Shown here: positions 49,850 to 55,364 of the stretch, piece after piece
How the letters are laid out: each line of letters begins with the position of its first letter
Position numbering within the stretch: position 1 is the stretch's first letter
DNA from: Microbacterium sp. A20
Lineage (GTDB): Bacteria; Actinomycetota; Actinomycetes; Actinomycetales; Microbacteriaceae
DNA length: 64,000 nucleotides
Direction: 5' to 3'
Assembly (NCBI RefSeq): GCF_004794515.1
Contig: NZ_SSDF01000084.1
Span: 1 to 64,000 of the forward strand
The notes under the pieces: model-generated
What the model was told of the DNA's origin: nothing
Databases searched by the model: none
What the model saw: only the letters and a program-made list of their open reading frames with translations
Made by a program: the position numbers and the translations under genes

Positions 49850-50473
49850 CTACGACTCGATGATCAGCTGCACGAGGCGACCGAGCTGCTCGCTGCCGGC
49901 CTGCCGCAACTGGGCGTCGTCCTGGCCCGCCATCGCTCCGCGCACGGTCATGCCCTCCCAGAGGATCATGAGCATGCGGGCCGCGGTCTCGGCCGGCAGA
50001 CGAAGCTTCAGCGCACTCACCAAGACGATGTCGTCGATGATCTGCGCGATGCTCGACACCATCTCGCTCTCCTGTGCGAGGTAGGCCTCGCCGAACTTCG
50101 CGTCACGCAGGGCGCGGATGCGGATCTCGCTCAGCAGCATCACGCCCAGGCGATCGTCGCCGCCGAGCTCCATGATCTGCTGCACCAGCTCGATGGGATC
50201 GCACCCCTCGACCAGAGCGCCCTCCGCCGTCAGCTCCTCGACGCGGGTGCGCACTCCGCTCACGCGCACCTCGGAGACGCTCGCGGCGAGCATGAGGAAC
50301 AGCTCGTCCTTGGATTCGAAGTTGGAGTAGAACGCGCCGCGGGTGAAGCCGGCTCGTTCACACACGGCCTCGACCGAGGCGCCGTCGAGACCGACCTCGG
50401 CGAAGACCTGCGCCGCTGCCTCGAGCAGCCGGGCGCGCGTGTTCTCACGACTGCGGGTTGCGGGTGTCGACAT
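49850..50473 (-). CDS. TetR/AcrR family regulator of the MMPL exporter
   Basis: 207 residues. TetR helix-turn-helix (ASVEAVCERAGFTRGAFYSNF at about 33-53) and an all-helical sensor domain. The ATG at 50473 is preceded by AGGAGGT. It diverges from the MMPL gene across a 131-nt region carrying two GATACA-N4-TGTATC sites, so it is the probable repressor of both directions. Some relatives control lipid or drug export with MMPL proteins. Confidence 0.9.
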   Translation of the reverse strand: MSTPATRSRENTRARLLEAAAQVFAEVGLDGASVEAVCERAGFTRGAFYSNFESKDELFLMLAASVSEVRVSGVRTRVEELTAEGALVEGCDPIELVQQIMELGGDDRLGVMLLSEIRIRALRDAKFGEAYLAQESEMVSSIAQIIDDIVLVSALKLRLPAETAARMLMILWEGMTVRGAMAGQDDAQLRQAGSEQLGRLVQLIIES

Positions 50474-50546
50474 CGAAACCTCCTGACCCTTCACTCTCGC
50501 ACGATTCACACCCGGCACACAGACTCCGACGCACCGGTCAATTTAC

Positions 50547-50562
50547 GATACATGTATGTATC
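50547..50562. promoter_or_regulatory. TetR operator, site 1
   Basis: GATACATGTATGTATC has 6-bp GATACA/TGTATC arms around a TGTA spacer, in the divergent region between tetR-like and MMPL genes. Confidence 0.75.
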
Positions 50563-50580
50563 GGATACACCTGTGTATCC
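50563..50580. promoter_or_regulatory. TetR operator, site 2
   Basis: GGATACACCTGTGTATCC has perfect 7-bp arms around CCTG, contiguous with site 1 and with centres 17 bp apart. The MMPL GTG lies 24 nt further on. Confidence 0.8.
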
Positions 50581-50604: not shown

Positions 50605-53394
50605 GTGTCCACACTCCTGTCCTCGCTCGGCCGCTGGTCCTTCCGGCACCCGTGGCGAGTCCTCGTGTCCTGGCTGCTCGCGCTCGGCATCGCCGGAGCC
50701 GGAGCACTCGTACTGGGAGCGGGCACCGACAACACGTTCTCCATCCCGGGCACGGAATCGCAGGCAGGTCTCGAGCAGCTCTCGCGCTCGTTCCCGCAGG
50801 TGAGCGGCACGAACGCGCAGTTCATCGTCGTGGCCGCCGACGGTGACGAGATCACGGACGACGACTACCGCGACCACATCGAGGATGCCGTCGACGAACT
50901 CGGCGACCTCGACGGCGTGCTCGCCGCCACCTCGCCCTACGACGAGATGGTCGAGGGCATGATCAACGACGACGACACGGCGGCCATCGTGCGTGTGCAG
51001 TTCGACGGCGAATCCACCGACGTCTCGGACGACACGAAGGACGCGCTGCGCTCCGTGGTGAGCGACCTCGACGCCGAACTCCCCGACGGCGCGCAGACCT
51101 CCCTCGGCGGCGACCTCTTCGCGATCTCGATCCCCGGCGTCACGCTCACCGAGGCCGTCGGCCTCCTGATCGCGCTGCTCGTGCTGATCGTCACCTTCCG
51201 CTCCTTCGTGGTGGCCGGTCTGCCGCTCCTCACGGCCATCCTCGGCGTCGGCATCTCGATGGCGGGCATCTTCACCGCGACCGCCTTCGCGACCGTGTCC
51301 TCCACCACCCCCCTGCTCGCGCTCATGCTCGGGCTCGCGGTCGGCATCGACTATGCGCTGTTCATCATGGCCCGACATCAGGACCAGGTCCGCGAGGGCG
51401 TCGACCCCGAAGAATCCGCCTCGCGCGCCGTCGGCACGGCCGGGTCGGCCGTCGTCTTCGCCGGTGTCACGGTGCTCATCGCGCTGATCGGTCTCGGCTT
51501 CGCCGGCATCCCGTTCCTGACGACCATGGGCATCGCCGCCTCCGTCTCCGTGGCGGTCGCCGTCGCGATCGCGGTCACGCTGACGCCTGCCTTCCTCGGC
51601 TTCATGAAGGGGAAGGTGGTGGGCCGTCCGAGGCGCACGCCGAAGGCGAAGAAGAAGAACACCGACAGCGACGATGCGTCCGCAGCCCCCGCCCGCGCGA
51701 AGGGCAGTGCCCGTTGGGTGAACGGCGTCACAAAACGCCCGATCCTGGTCTCGCTGGCCGTCGTGATCGGCCTCGGCATCGTGGCAGTCCCGGCGCTCAG
51801 CCTCAACCTCGCGCTTCCGAACGCGGGCGTGCTGCCGAAGGACTCGGAGGCGCGTCAGACCTACGACCTCGTGGCGGAGGAGTTCGGGCCCGGCTTCAAC
51901 GGCCCGATGATCCTCACCGGCACGATCGTCACCTCGACCGACCCGCTCACGCTGATGGAAGACCTCGGCGATGCCGTCGCGGAGGTCCCGGGCGTCAAGG
52001 AGGTCGCGCTCGCGACACCGAACGAGACCGCCGACACCGGCATCGTGCAGATCATCCCCGAGACCGCGCCGGACGACCCGGCGACGGCGGACCTCGTCCG
52101 CGAGCTGCGGAGCCACCACGACGAGTGGCTCGACGAGTTCGGGATCGACCTCAAGGTCACCGGCTTCACGGCCATCGGCATCGACATCTCCGACCAGCTC
52201 GGCAATGCGCTGCTGCCGTTCGGCATCTTCGTGATCGGGCTCTCGCTCATCCTGCTCACCATCGTGTTCCGCTCGCTGTGGGTGCCGATCACCGCAGCCG
52301 CTGGCTACCTGCTCTCGATCGTCGCCGCATTCGGCGTGGTCGGCGCCGTGTTCGAGTGGGGCTGGTTCGCCGACCTGCTGCACGTCGCCAAGGTCGGACC
52401 GATCATCAGCTTCATGCCGATCATCCTGATGGGCGTGCTGTTCGGTCTCGCGATGGACTACCAGGTGTTCCTCGTCTCGCGGATGCGCGAGGACTTCGTG
52501 CACGACCCCGACTCGAAGAGCCCCGATCGGGCGACGCGCCGCGCTGCCGCGCTGCGCACCGTCCGCAGCGGCTTCACCGGCTCGGCCAAGGTCGTCACGG
52601 CCGCGGGCCTCATCATGTTCGCGGTCTTCGTGGCGTTCGTCCCCGAGGGCGACTCGTCGCTGAAACCCATCGCCCTGGGGCTCGCGGCCGGCATCGCGAT
52701 CGACGCCTTCCTGGTGCGGATGACGCTGATCCCCGCCCTCATGGCGATCCTCGGCGAGCGCGCCTGGGAGCTGCCGGCCTGGCTCGAGAAGATCCTCCCC
52801 CGGGTCGATGTCGAGGGCGAGGCCGTGGAGCGCGAACGACACCTGGCCGACTGGCCGGGAGACGGCTCGATCGTCGCCGCCGATGTTCTCGACATCAGCG
52901 CCGATGCGCCGATCGTCGAGAACCTGTCCCTGCGCATCCCGGAAGGCGGAGCGCTCGTCGCGACCGGTGGCGATGTGCGGGCCCGACGGGCACTCGCGCT
53001 CACGATCGCGGGCCGGGTGACGCCCACCGACGGCCGACTCCGCGTCGCGGGTCATCTGCTCCCCGGACGCGGGGCATGGGTGCGCTCGCACGTCGGCTGC
53101 GTGCTGGTCGACGACGCCGATGCCGCCCTCGCCGATCTCGCCGAGGCGCTGCGCGGAAAGTCGCAGATCGTCGTGATCGACGGGATCGATCGCCTGACCG
53201 GCGGCCAGCGCGACCAGGCGGCCGCGATGCTGCGCGATGCCGCGGCATCCCGCACGCTCGCGGTGTTCGCCACCGCCTCCGATGCCGATGTGGCACTGAC
53301 CACCCTCGCGGAAGCCGGCTGGCCCGCCCCCGAAACTCTCGACACGCGCGCTCCTCGCCGGAGCGCCGCAGAACCCACCGAGGTGACCGCATGA
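50605..53394 (+). CDS. MMPL/RND-type transporter with a C-terminal vestigial ABC ATPase domain
   Basis: 929 residues. Two MMPL units: a first helix near 15-35, an extracellular domain, then helix bundles at about 180-350 and 550-740, with the conserved LAVGIDYALFIM and LAMDYQVFLVSR acidic-tyrosine motifs that couple transport to protons. Residues about 754-905 resemble an ABC nucleotide-binding domain: IVENLSLRIPEGGALVATGG, but Walker A reads TGGDVRARRAL with no Lys, Walker B ends VVIDGID, and no normal signature exists. Start GTG at 50605 with GGAGG. It overlaps the next gene by four bases. Confidence 0.9.
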   Translation: MSTLLSSLGRWSFRHPWRVLVSWLLALGIAGAGALVLGAGTDNTFSIPGTESQAGLEQLSRSFPQVSGTNAQFIVVAADGDEITDDDYRDHIEDAVDELGDLDGVLAATSPYDEMVEGMINDDDTAAIVRVQFDGESTDVSDDTKDALRSVVSDLDAELPDGAQTSLGGDLFAISIPGVTLTEAVGLLIALLVLIVTFRSFVVAGLPLLTAILGVGISMAGIFTATAFATVSSTTPLLALMLGLAVGIDYALFIMARHQDQVREGVDPEESASRAVGTAGSAVVFAGVTVLIALIGLGFAGIPFLTTMGIAASVSVAVAVAIAVTLTPAFLGFMKGKVVGRPRRTPKAKKKNTDSDDASAAPARAKGSARWVNGVTKRPILVSLAVVIGLGIVAVPALSLNLALPNAGVLPKDSEARQTYDLVAEEFGPGFNGPMILTGTIVTSTDPLTLMEDLGDAVAEVPGVKEVALATPNETADTGIVQIIPETAPDDPATADLVRELRSHHDEWLDEFGIDLKVTGFTAIGIDISDQLGNALLPFGIFVIGLSLILLTIVFRSLWVPITAAAGYLLSIVAAFGVVGAVFEWGWFADLLHVAKVGPIISFMPIILMGVLFGLAMDYQVFLVSRMREDFVHDPDSKSPDRATRRAAALRTVRSGFTGSAKVVTAAGLIMFAVFVAFVPEGDSSLKPIALGLAAGIAIDAFLVRMTLIPALMAILGERAWELPAWLEKILPRVDVEGEAVERERHLADWPGDGSIVAADVLDISADAPIVENLSLRIPEGGALVATGGDVRARRALALTIAGRVTPTDGRLRVAGHLLPGRGAWVRSHVGCVLVDDADAALADLAEALRGKSQIVVIDGIDRLTGGQRDQAAAMLRDAAASRTLAVFATASDADVALTTLAEAGWPAPETLDTRAPRRSAAEPTEVTA

Positions 53395-55364
53395 CCCTCC
53401 CCATCGAGCGCGCGCGCTCCCGCAAGCCCATCACGTGGCTGACCATCCTCGGCGTGCTGCTGCTTCCCGCGGCGGTCGGCGGCATCCTGGTCGCGGCCCT
53501 GCAGAACCCGACCGAGCGTCTGGAGTCGATGACCGCGGCGATCGTCAACCTCGACGAGCCGGTGACCATCGACGACCAGGTCACCCCGCTCGGACGCCAG
53601 CTGGCGGCAGGACTCGTCGAGGGGTCGGACGACCTCGACTCCAACCTGACATGGGTGATCTCGAACGAAGAGGATGCGGCCGACGGTCTCGCCGACGGCT
53701 CGTACCAGGCGGTCATCACCATCCCCGAGGAGTTCTCTGCGGCGGCGACCTCGGCCGGTCAGGCGATCTCGGACGGCGGCGGCGAGGCCGAGCAGGCCAC
53801 CATCGCCGTGACCACTCCGGACGACGGCCTCGTCGCCGACGACCTCATCACCGGCCAGATCGCCGACGTCGCGGCCTCGACCATGGGCACCATGCTGTCC
53901 GAGGCGACGACCGAGAATATCCTGGTCGGCTTCACCACGATCGGCGACCAGATCGGTGAGGCGGCAGACGGCGCACTGAAGCTCGCCAACGGTGCACGGG
54001 ATGCCGCGACCGGTGCCGCGGCGATCCCCAAGGGCGCGACGAAACTCGCCTCGGGCGCGGGCGAACTCGGCTCCGGAGCGTCTTCGCTGGCCACGGGACT
54101 CGACACGATCGCCGGCAAGACGCGGGAGGCGGCGGCGGGTGCGGCGCAGATCGGGTCGGGGCTGACCGGCGGCGGCAACCAGCTGCAGCAGAGCGTCGCC
54201 GGCACGCAGCAGCTCGTCGGAGCGATCCAGGGCGCCTCGGCATCGGCGCAGTCCGCAGCGAACGGGTCGGCCGCTCTCGCGCAGAAGCTGGGCGCGCTGG
54301 CGCAGACCGCCTGCACGCCGCCAATCGCGGACCAGGACGAGTGCACCCTGTTCACGTCGCTCGCGAAAGACGCGGGCGCCGTGGCGACCTCTGCAGGAAC
54401 CGCCTCCGGCGTGCTCAACAGCCCGAAGGTCGCAGGCGGAATCGCCGCCCTCCCCGGCTCGCTCAGCACGATCGCCTCCAGCATGACCCAGGCGGGCGCC
54501 GGGGCGACACAGCTGTCCGGCGGACTCACGCAGCTCGCCGACCAGGGCATCGCCGCATCCGCCACCGGCGCGCGCGGCATCGCCACAGGTGCGACCCAGT
54601 TGTCCGACGGCGCCACCGCCCTGGCCGACGGCACGACCGAACTGGCGACCGGGATCGACACCCTGGCGACCGGGACCGGCGACCTCGCGGGTGGGCTGCG
54701 CACGGCATCCGACTCCCTCCCCTCGTTCAGCGACAGCGACTCGAAGTCCCTCGCCTCGGTGATCGCCGACCCGGTGTCGTCGAACTCCTCGATGGACACG
54801 ATCTTCGGTCCGACGGCGATCCCGCTGCTCGCCGCCGTCGTGCTGTGGTTCGGCGGACTCGCCACCTTCATCGTGATGCGCGCCCACACGGCGCGCACGC
54901 TCACGTCGCGGCGCTCGTCCGCCGCGCTGACGCTGCGGGCATTCGCACCCGCCGCCCTGATCGGTGCGGGACAGGGGCTGCTGGTGTCGCTGATCGTGCA
55001 GATCGTCGCGAGCTACGATGCGGCCGCGTGGTGGGCGTTCGCGGGCACCGCGGTGCTCGCCGGCATGGCGTTCGCTGCCGTGAACCAGGCACTCGTCGCC
55101 CTGTTCGGCGGCGTCGGACGCTGGATCTCCGCGCTCGTCGGGGTGCTCGCCGTCGCGACAGGTCTCATCTCCACGGTCCCCGGCTGGCTCTCCAGCATCG
55201 GAGCCGCCCTGCCGACGGCTCCCGCGTTCGCCGGGCTGATCGCAGGAAGCGGTTCGGCGGTTGCTGCCCTGGTGGTCTGGGGAGTGCTGTCGCTGGTCGC
55301 CACGACACTCGCCGTGACGCTGCGGCGCACGACGTCGGCCAAGGCGGTCCTCGCCACGGCCTGA
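53391..55364 (+). CDS. YhgE/Pip-type ABC-2-like membrane protein
   Basis: 657 residues: one N-terminal helix (about 14-36), an extracellular domain of over 400 residues dominated by Ala/Gly-rich heptad-like repeats (GAGELGSGASSLATGLDTI and many similar), and about six C-terminal helices from residue 465. This is the YhgE/Pip arrangement (phage infection protein, type VII-associated EsaA relatives). The ATG overlaps the MMPL stop (ATGA), so the two are one unit; paired MMPL and YhgE genes are frequent in Actinobacteria. Substrate unknown. Confidence 0.88.
   Translation: MTLPIERARSRKPITWLTILGVLLLPAAVGGILVAALQNPTERLESMTAAIVNLDEPVTIDDQVTPLGRQLAAGLVEGSDDLDSNLTWVISNEEDAADGLADGSYQAVITIPEEFSAAATSAGQAISDGGGEAEQATIAVTTPDDGLVADDLITGQIADVAASTMGTMLSEATTENILVGFTTIGDQIGEAADGALKLANGARDAATGAAAIPKGATKLASGAGELGSGASSLATGLDTIAGKTREAAAGAAQIGSGLTGGGNQLQQSVAGTQQLVGAIQGASASAQSAANGSAALAQKLGALAQTACTPPIADQDECTLFTSLAKDAGAVATSAGTASGVLNSPKVAGGIAALPGSLSTIASSMTQAGAGATQLSGGLTQLADQGIAASATGARGIATGATQLSDGATALADGTTELATGIDTLATGTGDLAGGLRTASDSLPSFSDSDSKSLASVIADPVSSNSSMDTIFGPTAIPLLAAVVLWFGGLATFIVMRAHTARTLTSRRSSAALTLRAFAPAALIGAGQGLLVSLIVQIVASYDAAAWWAFAGTAVLAGMAFAAVNQALVALFGGVGRWISALVGVLAVATGLISTVPGWLSSIGAALPTAPAFAGLIAGSGSAVAALVVWGVLSLVATTLAVTLRRTTSAKAVLATA

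Follow-up and report, generated by a model that had tools for sequence, protein, structure and literature searches.

An MMPL-type transporter of Microbacterium sp. A20 carries at its C-terminus a tail which, by its predicted structure, is a degenerate nucleotide-binding domain (NBD) of the ATP-binding cassette (ABC) type. We propose, with a probability of about 0.6, that this tail acts as a non-hydrolytic cytosolic docking adaptor tying the MMPL proton pump to the ABC-2-like membrane protein YhgE, since the nucleotide chemistry has been lost, one NBD segment has been kept and the gene is accompanied by one for an ABC-2-like protein. The stretch analysed, called here the window, is 64,000 nucleotides long (contig NZ_SSDF01000084.1, positions 1 to 64,000), and in its list of open reading frames the transporter gene is 50605-53394 of the forward strand (929 amino acids), with a GGAGG motif 5 nucleotides upstream of its GTG start. 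Related loci are designated below by L numbers.

Sequence comparison is nearly mute on the nature of the tail. It stays below the reporting level of the Pfam profile ABC_tran (PF00005; no match at an expectation value E<=1), the best NCBIfam model is NodI (E 6.5e-4; 18.6 bits, cut-off 549), and a sequence search of the solved structures in the PDB gives CFTR as the best match (E 0.0012), followed by HlyB. The nature of the tail is decided instead by the structure predicted with AlphaFold2 (AF2) from an alignment of 68 tails, which has a predicted local distance difference test score (pLDDT) of 86.7 and a predicted template modelling score (pTM) of 0.81. All 50 matches listed by Foldseek for this model are ABC proteins by description (best E 7.8e-10), and VIA-align, used as a second look at the same matches, places it on ABC NBDs with Z 18.0 over 161 aligned residues and a root-mean-square deviation of 2.5. 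The modelled tail thus has an ABC nucleotide-binding fold at model positions 29-196, that is, residues 753-920 of the protein. The original prediction, made from the letters of the window, had seen an ABC outline at residues 754-905, which is close to an exact match with this span; the IPEGG and IVVID segments and the D-loop-like DGIDRLTGGQRDQ that it named are all found in the translated frame, and the fold, which it had allowed might turn out unrelated to ABC NBDs, is theirs.

The preceding part of the protein appears to be a proton-type MMPL pump with intact Asp-Tyr pairs, and proton-driven transport is putative. It matches the Pfam MMPL profile of the resistance-nodulation-division (RND) pumps (PF03176) with the score given in Table 1, against a cut-off of 20.5. 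The pairs D249-Y250 and D618-Y619, presumably proton-relay pairs as in MmpL proteins, are kept in 127/127 distinct tailed homologues and in 43/43 of the others examined. A vestigial NBD fused to a proton-type MMPL and linked to YhgE, as first suggested, is supported by the fold, the Asp-Tyr pairs and the adjoining yhgE gene.

The motifs of nucleotide binding and hydrolysis were compared by alignment with the fused tail of relative L175. Walker A changes from GPSGSGKT in L175 to GGDVRARR in the window tail, and Walker B from VVDD to VIDG, in which the Asp is kept and Gly takes the place of the catalytic Glu. The segment of the LSGGQ signature is an alignment gap, and the window tail has no His downstream of Walker B to serve as H-switch. 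The helical subdomain has been deleted, with 23 residues from G831 to Walker B versus 91 in the corresponding part of L175; this signature-bearing subdomain is a gap in 136/136 short ("mini") tails, which keep the Walker B Asp in 120/136 and the D-loop Asp in 116/136 cases. The absence of the Walker A lysine, the catalytic Glu and a proper signature had been noticed beforehand, and the alignment bears it out. Judged from these residues, the window tail is very probably unable to bind or hydrolyse ATP. The GGQ of DRLTGGQRDQ was considered as a displaced signature and rejected, because it sits downstream of Walker B. Strings of the SGG[QEMR] type in four distinct tails (L005, L019, L056 and L169) were treated as chance; on reading, those of L005, L019 and L056 are located C-terminal to Walker B, within the helix that follows the D-loop. 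Such misplaced look-alikes could mislead motif scans in all four.

Conservation within the tail has shifted from the former P-loop to residues 810-831, the segment between the former Walker A and the Q-loop. The former P-loop (residues 786-796) is variable, with a mean entropy of 1.69 bits per column, versus the near-invariant segment listed in Table 1. In an NBD, the segment between Walker A and the Q-loop is close to the groove into which the coupling helix of the permease fits, and residues 810-831 may accordingly be viewed as the candidate docking face.

The yhgE gene overlaps the MMPL gene by four bases (ATGA). Its product matches the N-terminal YhgE model TIGR03061 (100.2 bits, cut-off 96.15) and Pfam ABC2_membrane_3 (41.3 bits, cut-off 31.6), and by these profiles appears to be related to ABC-2 permeases. 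YhgE is placed in the PIP family (TC 9.B.74), which has ABC-2 transporters among its homologues (PMC3924187). YhgE is encoded directly downstream of 157/157 distinct testable tailed MMPLs versus 0/42 distinct untailed ones, the latter including paralogues from the window's own genome. The count leaves out the copies of the window (L001, L083, L164, L168, L203, L243) as well as L038 and L040, where downstream sequence is missing, and treats L316 as not NBD-tailed; loci L198-L207, which were fetched via YhgE, are repeats of tailed loci also found via the tail or the pump. In this sample, the tailed MMPL and YhgE have never parted since the fusion. Among the 39 fetched stretches that contain YhgE (all of L258-L295, plus L297), 37 have an NBD-like domain, separate or fused, upstream of it: a strict search recognized 33, and a laxer search added four more degenerate ones. 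The exceptions, L278 (the window's own genome, contig C84) and L284, carry tandem YhgE-like genes with no NBD-like or MMPL partner in the stretch. In L279-L283 and L290 the separate NBD-like genes occur in the same order and have degenerated further, the P-loop Lys having left no trace.

These counts bear on the alternative that the tail serves the MMPL protein alone, by stabilizing or oligomerizing the pump or by binding another cytosolic protein, YhgE being a mere neighbour. Conservation of the linker and of residues 810-831 would suit such a domain, and in MmpL5 the cytoplasmic face and the C-terminus bind AcpM (PMC12501195). However, YhgE adjoins every tailed and no untailed MMPL of the count, and NBD-like genes stand beside YhgE even where MMPL is lacking; this explanation is the best of the alternatives and nevertheless an unlikely one.

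The tail had also been suggested to act as a regulatory sensor, which would bind ATP or ADP without hydrolysis and gate the pump. The NBD fold of the model, the Walker B Asp retained in most mini tails and the Walker A Lys retained in seven relatives speak for a sensor, but this Lys is absent in 182/189 domains, the window tail with its GGDVRARR among those without it, the P-loop positions are free to vary while another segment is near-invariant, and the tail has no helical subdomain, which would supply the second half of the nucleotide site. A nucleotide sensor is improbable, and this part of the original prediction is not supported.

Relatives were gathered with six search peptides, one of them inside the tail, and of the 159 found the best 80 were retained, so that the set leans towards tails. 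The tail is present, whole or partial, in 80/80 loci returned, two of which (L038 and L046) end early at contig ends; the best relative is L002 (98% identity in the best segment), and the Microbacterium of the window is close to M. oxydans. Absence of the tail from all close relatives, which would have spoken against the prediction, is therefore not what was found. A search with a tail profile also located the tail in additional genera, both of the family and of the order, its tallies of 265/299 and 245/297 genomes being upper bounds that include weak matches to ordinary ABC proteins. The ratio of nonsynonymous to synonymous substitution rates (dN/dS) of the tail domain over 24 chosen pairs is 0.062-0.306 (median 0.164), with 0.0835 for the pump: the tail is under purifying selection, less tight than that on the pump. 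A functionless relic heading for loss would agree with the disappearance of every catalytic motif, with the rate of the tail and with a frameshift in L011. Decay was nevertheless rejected because of the low dN/dS and the invariant columns over 68 sequences, to which the occurrence of the tail in every locus returned is added, and a relic is held to be slightly less probable still than a sensor. In L011 (8173-8775) the tail is apparently frameshifted after ATGGD, with YhgE intact downstream, by mutation or sequencing error. Describing the tail as a remnant of a former ABC partner suits its origin, as an NBD-like gene is found upstream of YhgE elsewhere, and is unfit for its present state because the domain is under purifying selection. 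Least probable of all is an asymmetric pair in which the degenerate tail would be closed upon by an intact NBD from another gene: pairs of a degenerate and an active site are frequent in eukaryotic ABC exporters (PMC7756269), but no NBD gene lies between the overlapping MMPL and yhgE genes (at the locus, with no genome-wide partner search) and mini tails lack the subdomain that bears the signature.

The ancestry of the tail can be followed in its relatives. In other members of the class the gene directly upstream of yhgE encodes an NBD of its own, full-size and likewise degenerate; the tail thus descends from this partner, seemingly degenerate already, which was fused to MMPL and trimmed. Among 189 distinct domains, 157 of them fused and 32 separate, none has the catalytic Glu or the SGG signature, and seven have the Walker A Lys. 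In the separate genes this Lys is replaced by Arg in 23/32 and the catalytic Glu by Asp in 20/32, and the latter change might permit slow hydrolysis. The tally was made by sequence alignment, in which the P-loop columns of mini tails are approximate, and leaves out the window copies named above, L011 (frameshift), L046 (truncated at a contig end), L315 and L316 (with a different C-terminal extension) and standalone matches with E above 1e-10. As the loss of Glu and SGG extends to the 32 separate genes, actinomycete NBD partners of YhgE have apparently lost normal catalysis independently of the fusion. No fully intact NBD of the tail family was encountered among the 189 domains, a sample of genome draws beyond which an intact ancestor may exist.

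Intermediates of several grades were observed. The fused tails of L175 and L176, from the same class and another order, retain GPSGSGKT and the helical subdomain, and that of L175 scores 60.7 bits with ABC_tran, whose cut-off of 25 bits is passed by 5/7 relatives scanned. Another 19 full-size tails (L124-L142 except L129, and L177) have the helical subdomain without Walker A, and four mini tails (L091, L095, L096, L148) retain GKS. In a tree of 83 MMPL cores, made by a quick method with near untailed sequences found by similarity rather than a full sample of them, the 63 tailed proteins form one clade (Shimodaira-Hasegawa-like approximate likelihood ratio test, SH-aLRT, 100) and the 20 untailed ones stand apart. 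L166, L167, L196 and L272 were left out of the tree, and its size labels follow length (L042, L143 and L160 counting as full), while the motif tally sorts by content and does not count these as full. L175 and L176 are placed among mini tails (support 90-94), next to the long branch of L148. The single clade and the graded intermediates fit one fusion, after which the helical subdomain was lost at least once.

The data show the fold, the loss of motifs, the conservation, the ancestry and the strict association of the genes; physical docking, and with it the docking surface, energy coupling, oligomeric state and substrate of a complex, belong to the following proposal. The degenerate NBD partner of YhgE would have fused to the C-terminus of MMPL and, in the Microbacterium line, the fused pseudo-NBD would have lost its helical subdomain while keeping part of the NBD face that meets the permease, by which it would dock YhgE to MMPL as a plug. 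MMPL would be the motor, drawing energy through D249/Y250 and D618/Y619, and YhgE, whose long coiled coil would lie outside the membrane, the path into the wall. The complex would export some hydrophobic or envelope compound under the control of the divergent TetR-type regulator. That an RND motor drives an ABC-2-type protein through a dead ATPase coupling, the proton gradient replacing ATP in a hybrid transporter whose coiled coil extends into the cell wall, is a tentative extension and itself doubtful.

The division into motor, plug and path was proposed because of the YhgE coiled coil with its tip cysteines and because of parallels with MmpL5 and EsaA. C308 and C318 of YhgE (window 54312-54344) sit where the predicted coiled-coil hairpin turns (Cys in 56/57 and 57/57 aligned YhgE sequences) and resemble the tip disulfide of MmpL5. 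A Cys pair occurs in that region in 98/118 YhgE proteins behind a tailed MMPL versus 13/47 others; it was discarded as a mark of MMPL-linked YhgE, since many of the 20 exceptions belong to the full-size-tail clade and the pattern may reflect ancestry only. In Mycobacterium tuberculosis, MmpL5 bears a coiled-coil domain tipped by a disulfide, and efflux was abolished when this domain was deleted (PMC12501195). The MmpS5-MmpL5 system shares with that of the window an MMPL pump, Asp-Tyr pairs and a coiled coil with cysteines at the tip; however, the coiled coil is inside MmpL5, whereas in the window system it is inside the partner YhgE, with two tip cysteines, and the accessible part of that report mentions no NBD-like tail (PMC12501195). 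The YhgE relative EsaA possesses an elongated domain outside the cell that can reach across the peptidoglycan, and its interaction with the pseudokinase EssB/YukC seems to run largely through membrane helices (PMC9600267). YhgE of the window matches the EsaA N-terminal model TIGR03929 with E 4.5e-10, below the cut-off. EsaA/YueB of type VIIb secretion, with EssB/YukC, thus resembles the window system in having a YhgE-like protein, a long extracellular domain and a dead enzyme partner, and differs in that a pseudokinase replaces the pseudo-NBD, contact seems to be mainly by membrane helices and there is no MMPL.

Two further comparisons concern the NBD itself. The separate NBD-YhgE pairs (e.g., L258-L268, L270, L271 and L273) share with the window locus the NBD family, as judged by profile (best E 1.5e-73), the order NBD-then-YhgE and the loss of catalytic Glu and signature; in contrast, their NBD has its own gene and keeps the helical subdomain, and no MMPL is present in the fetched stretch. 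ABC exporters with a degenerate site retain NBDs without catalytic residues, as the window tail does, but have the full NBD fold and one active site in the dimer (PMC7756269).

Several observations weigh against docking to YhgE. With the C-terminal YhgE model TIGR03062 the protein scores 53.8 bits, short of the cut-off of 102.2, so it is related but divergent; its structure model is modest (pTM 0.42) and has no PDB fold match at E<=0.001, the best being 3cni (E 0.021), a domain from a putative ABC-2 transporter. The contrast of 157 with 0 rests on few independent events, because tailed MMPLs form one clade. An MMPL match was found in 0/37 stretches whose YhgE has no fused MMPL adjoining, and such standalone NBD-YhgE pairs indicate that YhgE needs no MMPL in general. 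In the 24 pairs the evolutionary rate of the tail is roughly double that of the pump, and residues 810-831 could serve oligomerization of MMPL or another partner.

If the adaptor reading is true, RND pumps, driven by protons, and ABC transporters, driven by ATP, which are usually treated apart, join in one machine; part of the poorly understood YhgE/Pip family would acquire a role in actinomycetes, and living relatives would show an ATPase stripped to a docking module (GKT, GRT or no P-loop, with or without the helical subdomain). There is also a risk for annotation, as domains that pass the ABC_tran cut-off, like most of those scanned, may be labelled ATPases although the catalytic Glu is absent from the whole tally. 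Neither MMPL-NBD fusions nor NBD-YhgE pairs were recognized, by title or start of abstract, among the matches listed in the open-licence literature.

Table 1. Features of the MMPL-YhgE locus in window coordinates.
Feature	Position	Strand	Basis
Divergent TetR-type regulator gene	49850..50518	-	First start in open reading frame list; real start possibly internal
Two adjoining 18-bp palindromes, CGATACATGTATGTATCG and GGATACACCTGTGTATCC, between TetR-type gene and MMPL	50546..50580	.	Sequence
MMPL/RND pump part, residues 1 to ~734	50605..52806	+	Pfam MMPL 285.6 bits; D249-Y250, D618-Y619
Linker from pump to tail, PRVDVEGEAVERERHLADWP, residues 732-751	52798..52857	+	Mean entropy 0.53 bits, 68 sequences; invariant columns
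Pseudo-NBD domain (predicted), residues 753-920, without helical subdomain	52861..53364	+	AF2, Foldseek, VIA-align
Former Walker A, GGDVRARR, residues 788-795, in place of GxxxxGK[ST]	52966..52989	+	Alignment
Most conserved tail segment, GRLRVAGHLLPGRGAWVRSHVG, residues 810-831, former Walker A to Q-loop	53032..53097	+	Entropy 0.35 bits, at least 10 invariant columns
Walker B strand IVVID, Gly860 at catalytic Glu position, D-loop-type D862	53167..53187	+	Alignment
YhgE/Pip-like ABC-2-type membrane protein, 657 amino acids, coiled coil predicted	53391..55364	+	TIGR03061, ABC2_membrane_3

The extension of the MMPL proteins of L315 and L316, which have no YhgE, comprises about 150 residues and has, on reading, an extracellular-type beta look (VYGTVRSSDGTPLPGAIVTL). 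Regarding regulation, a TetR homologue is present somewhere in 80/80 returned loci (phmmer E<=1e-5, anywhere in the locus), and GATACn4-8GTATC is found within 200 bp upstream of MMPL in 67/80 loci. The paired palindromes of the window are probable, still putative, TetR operators.

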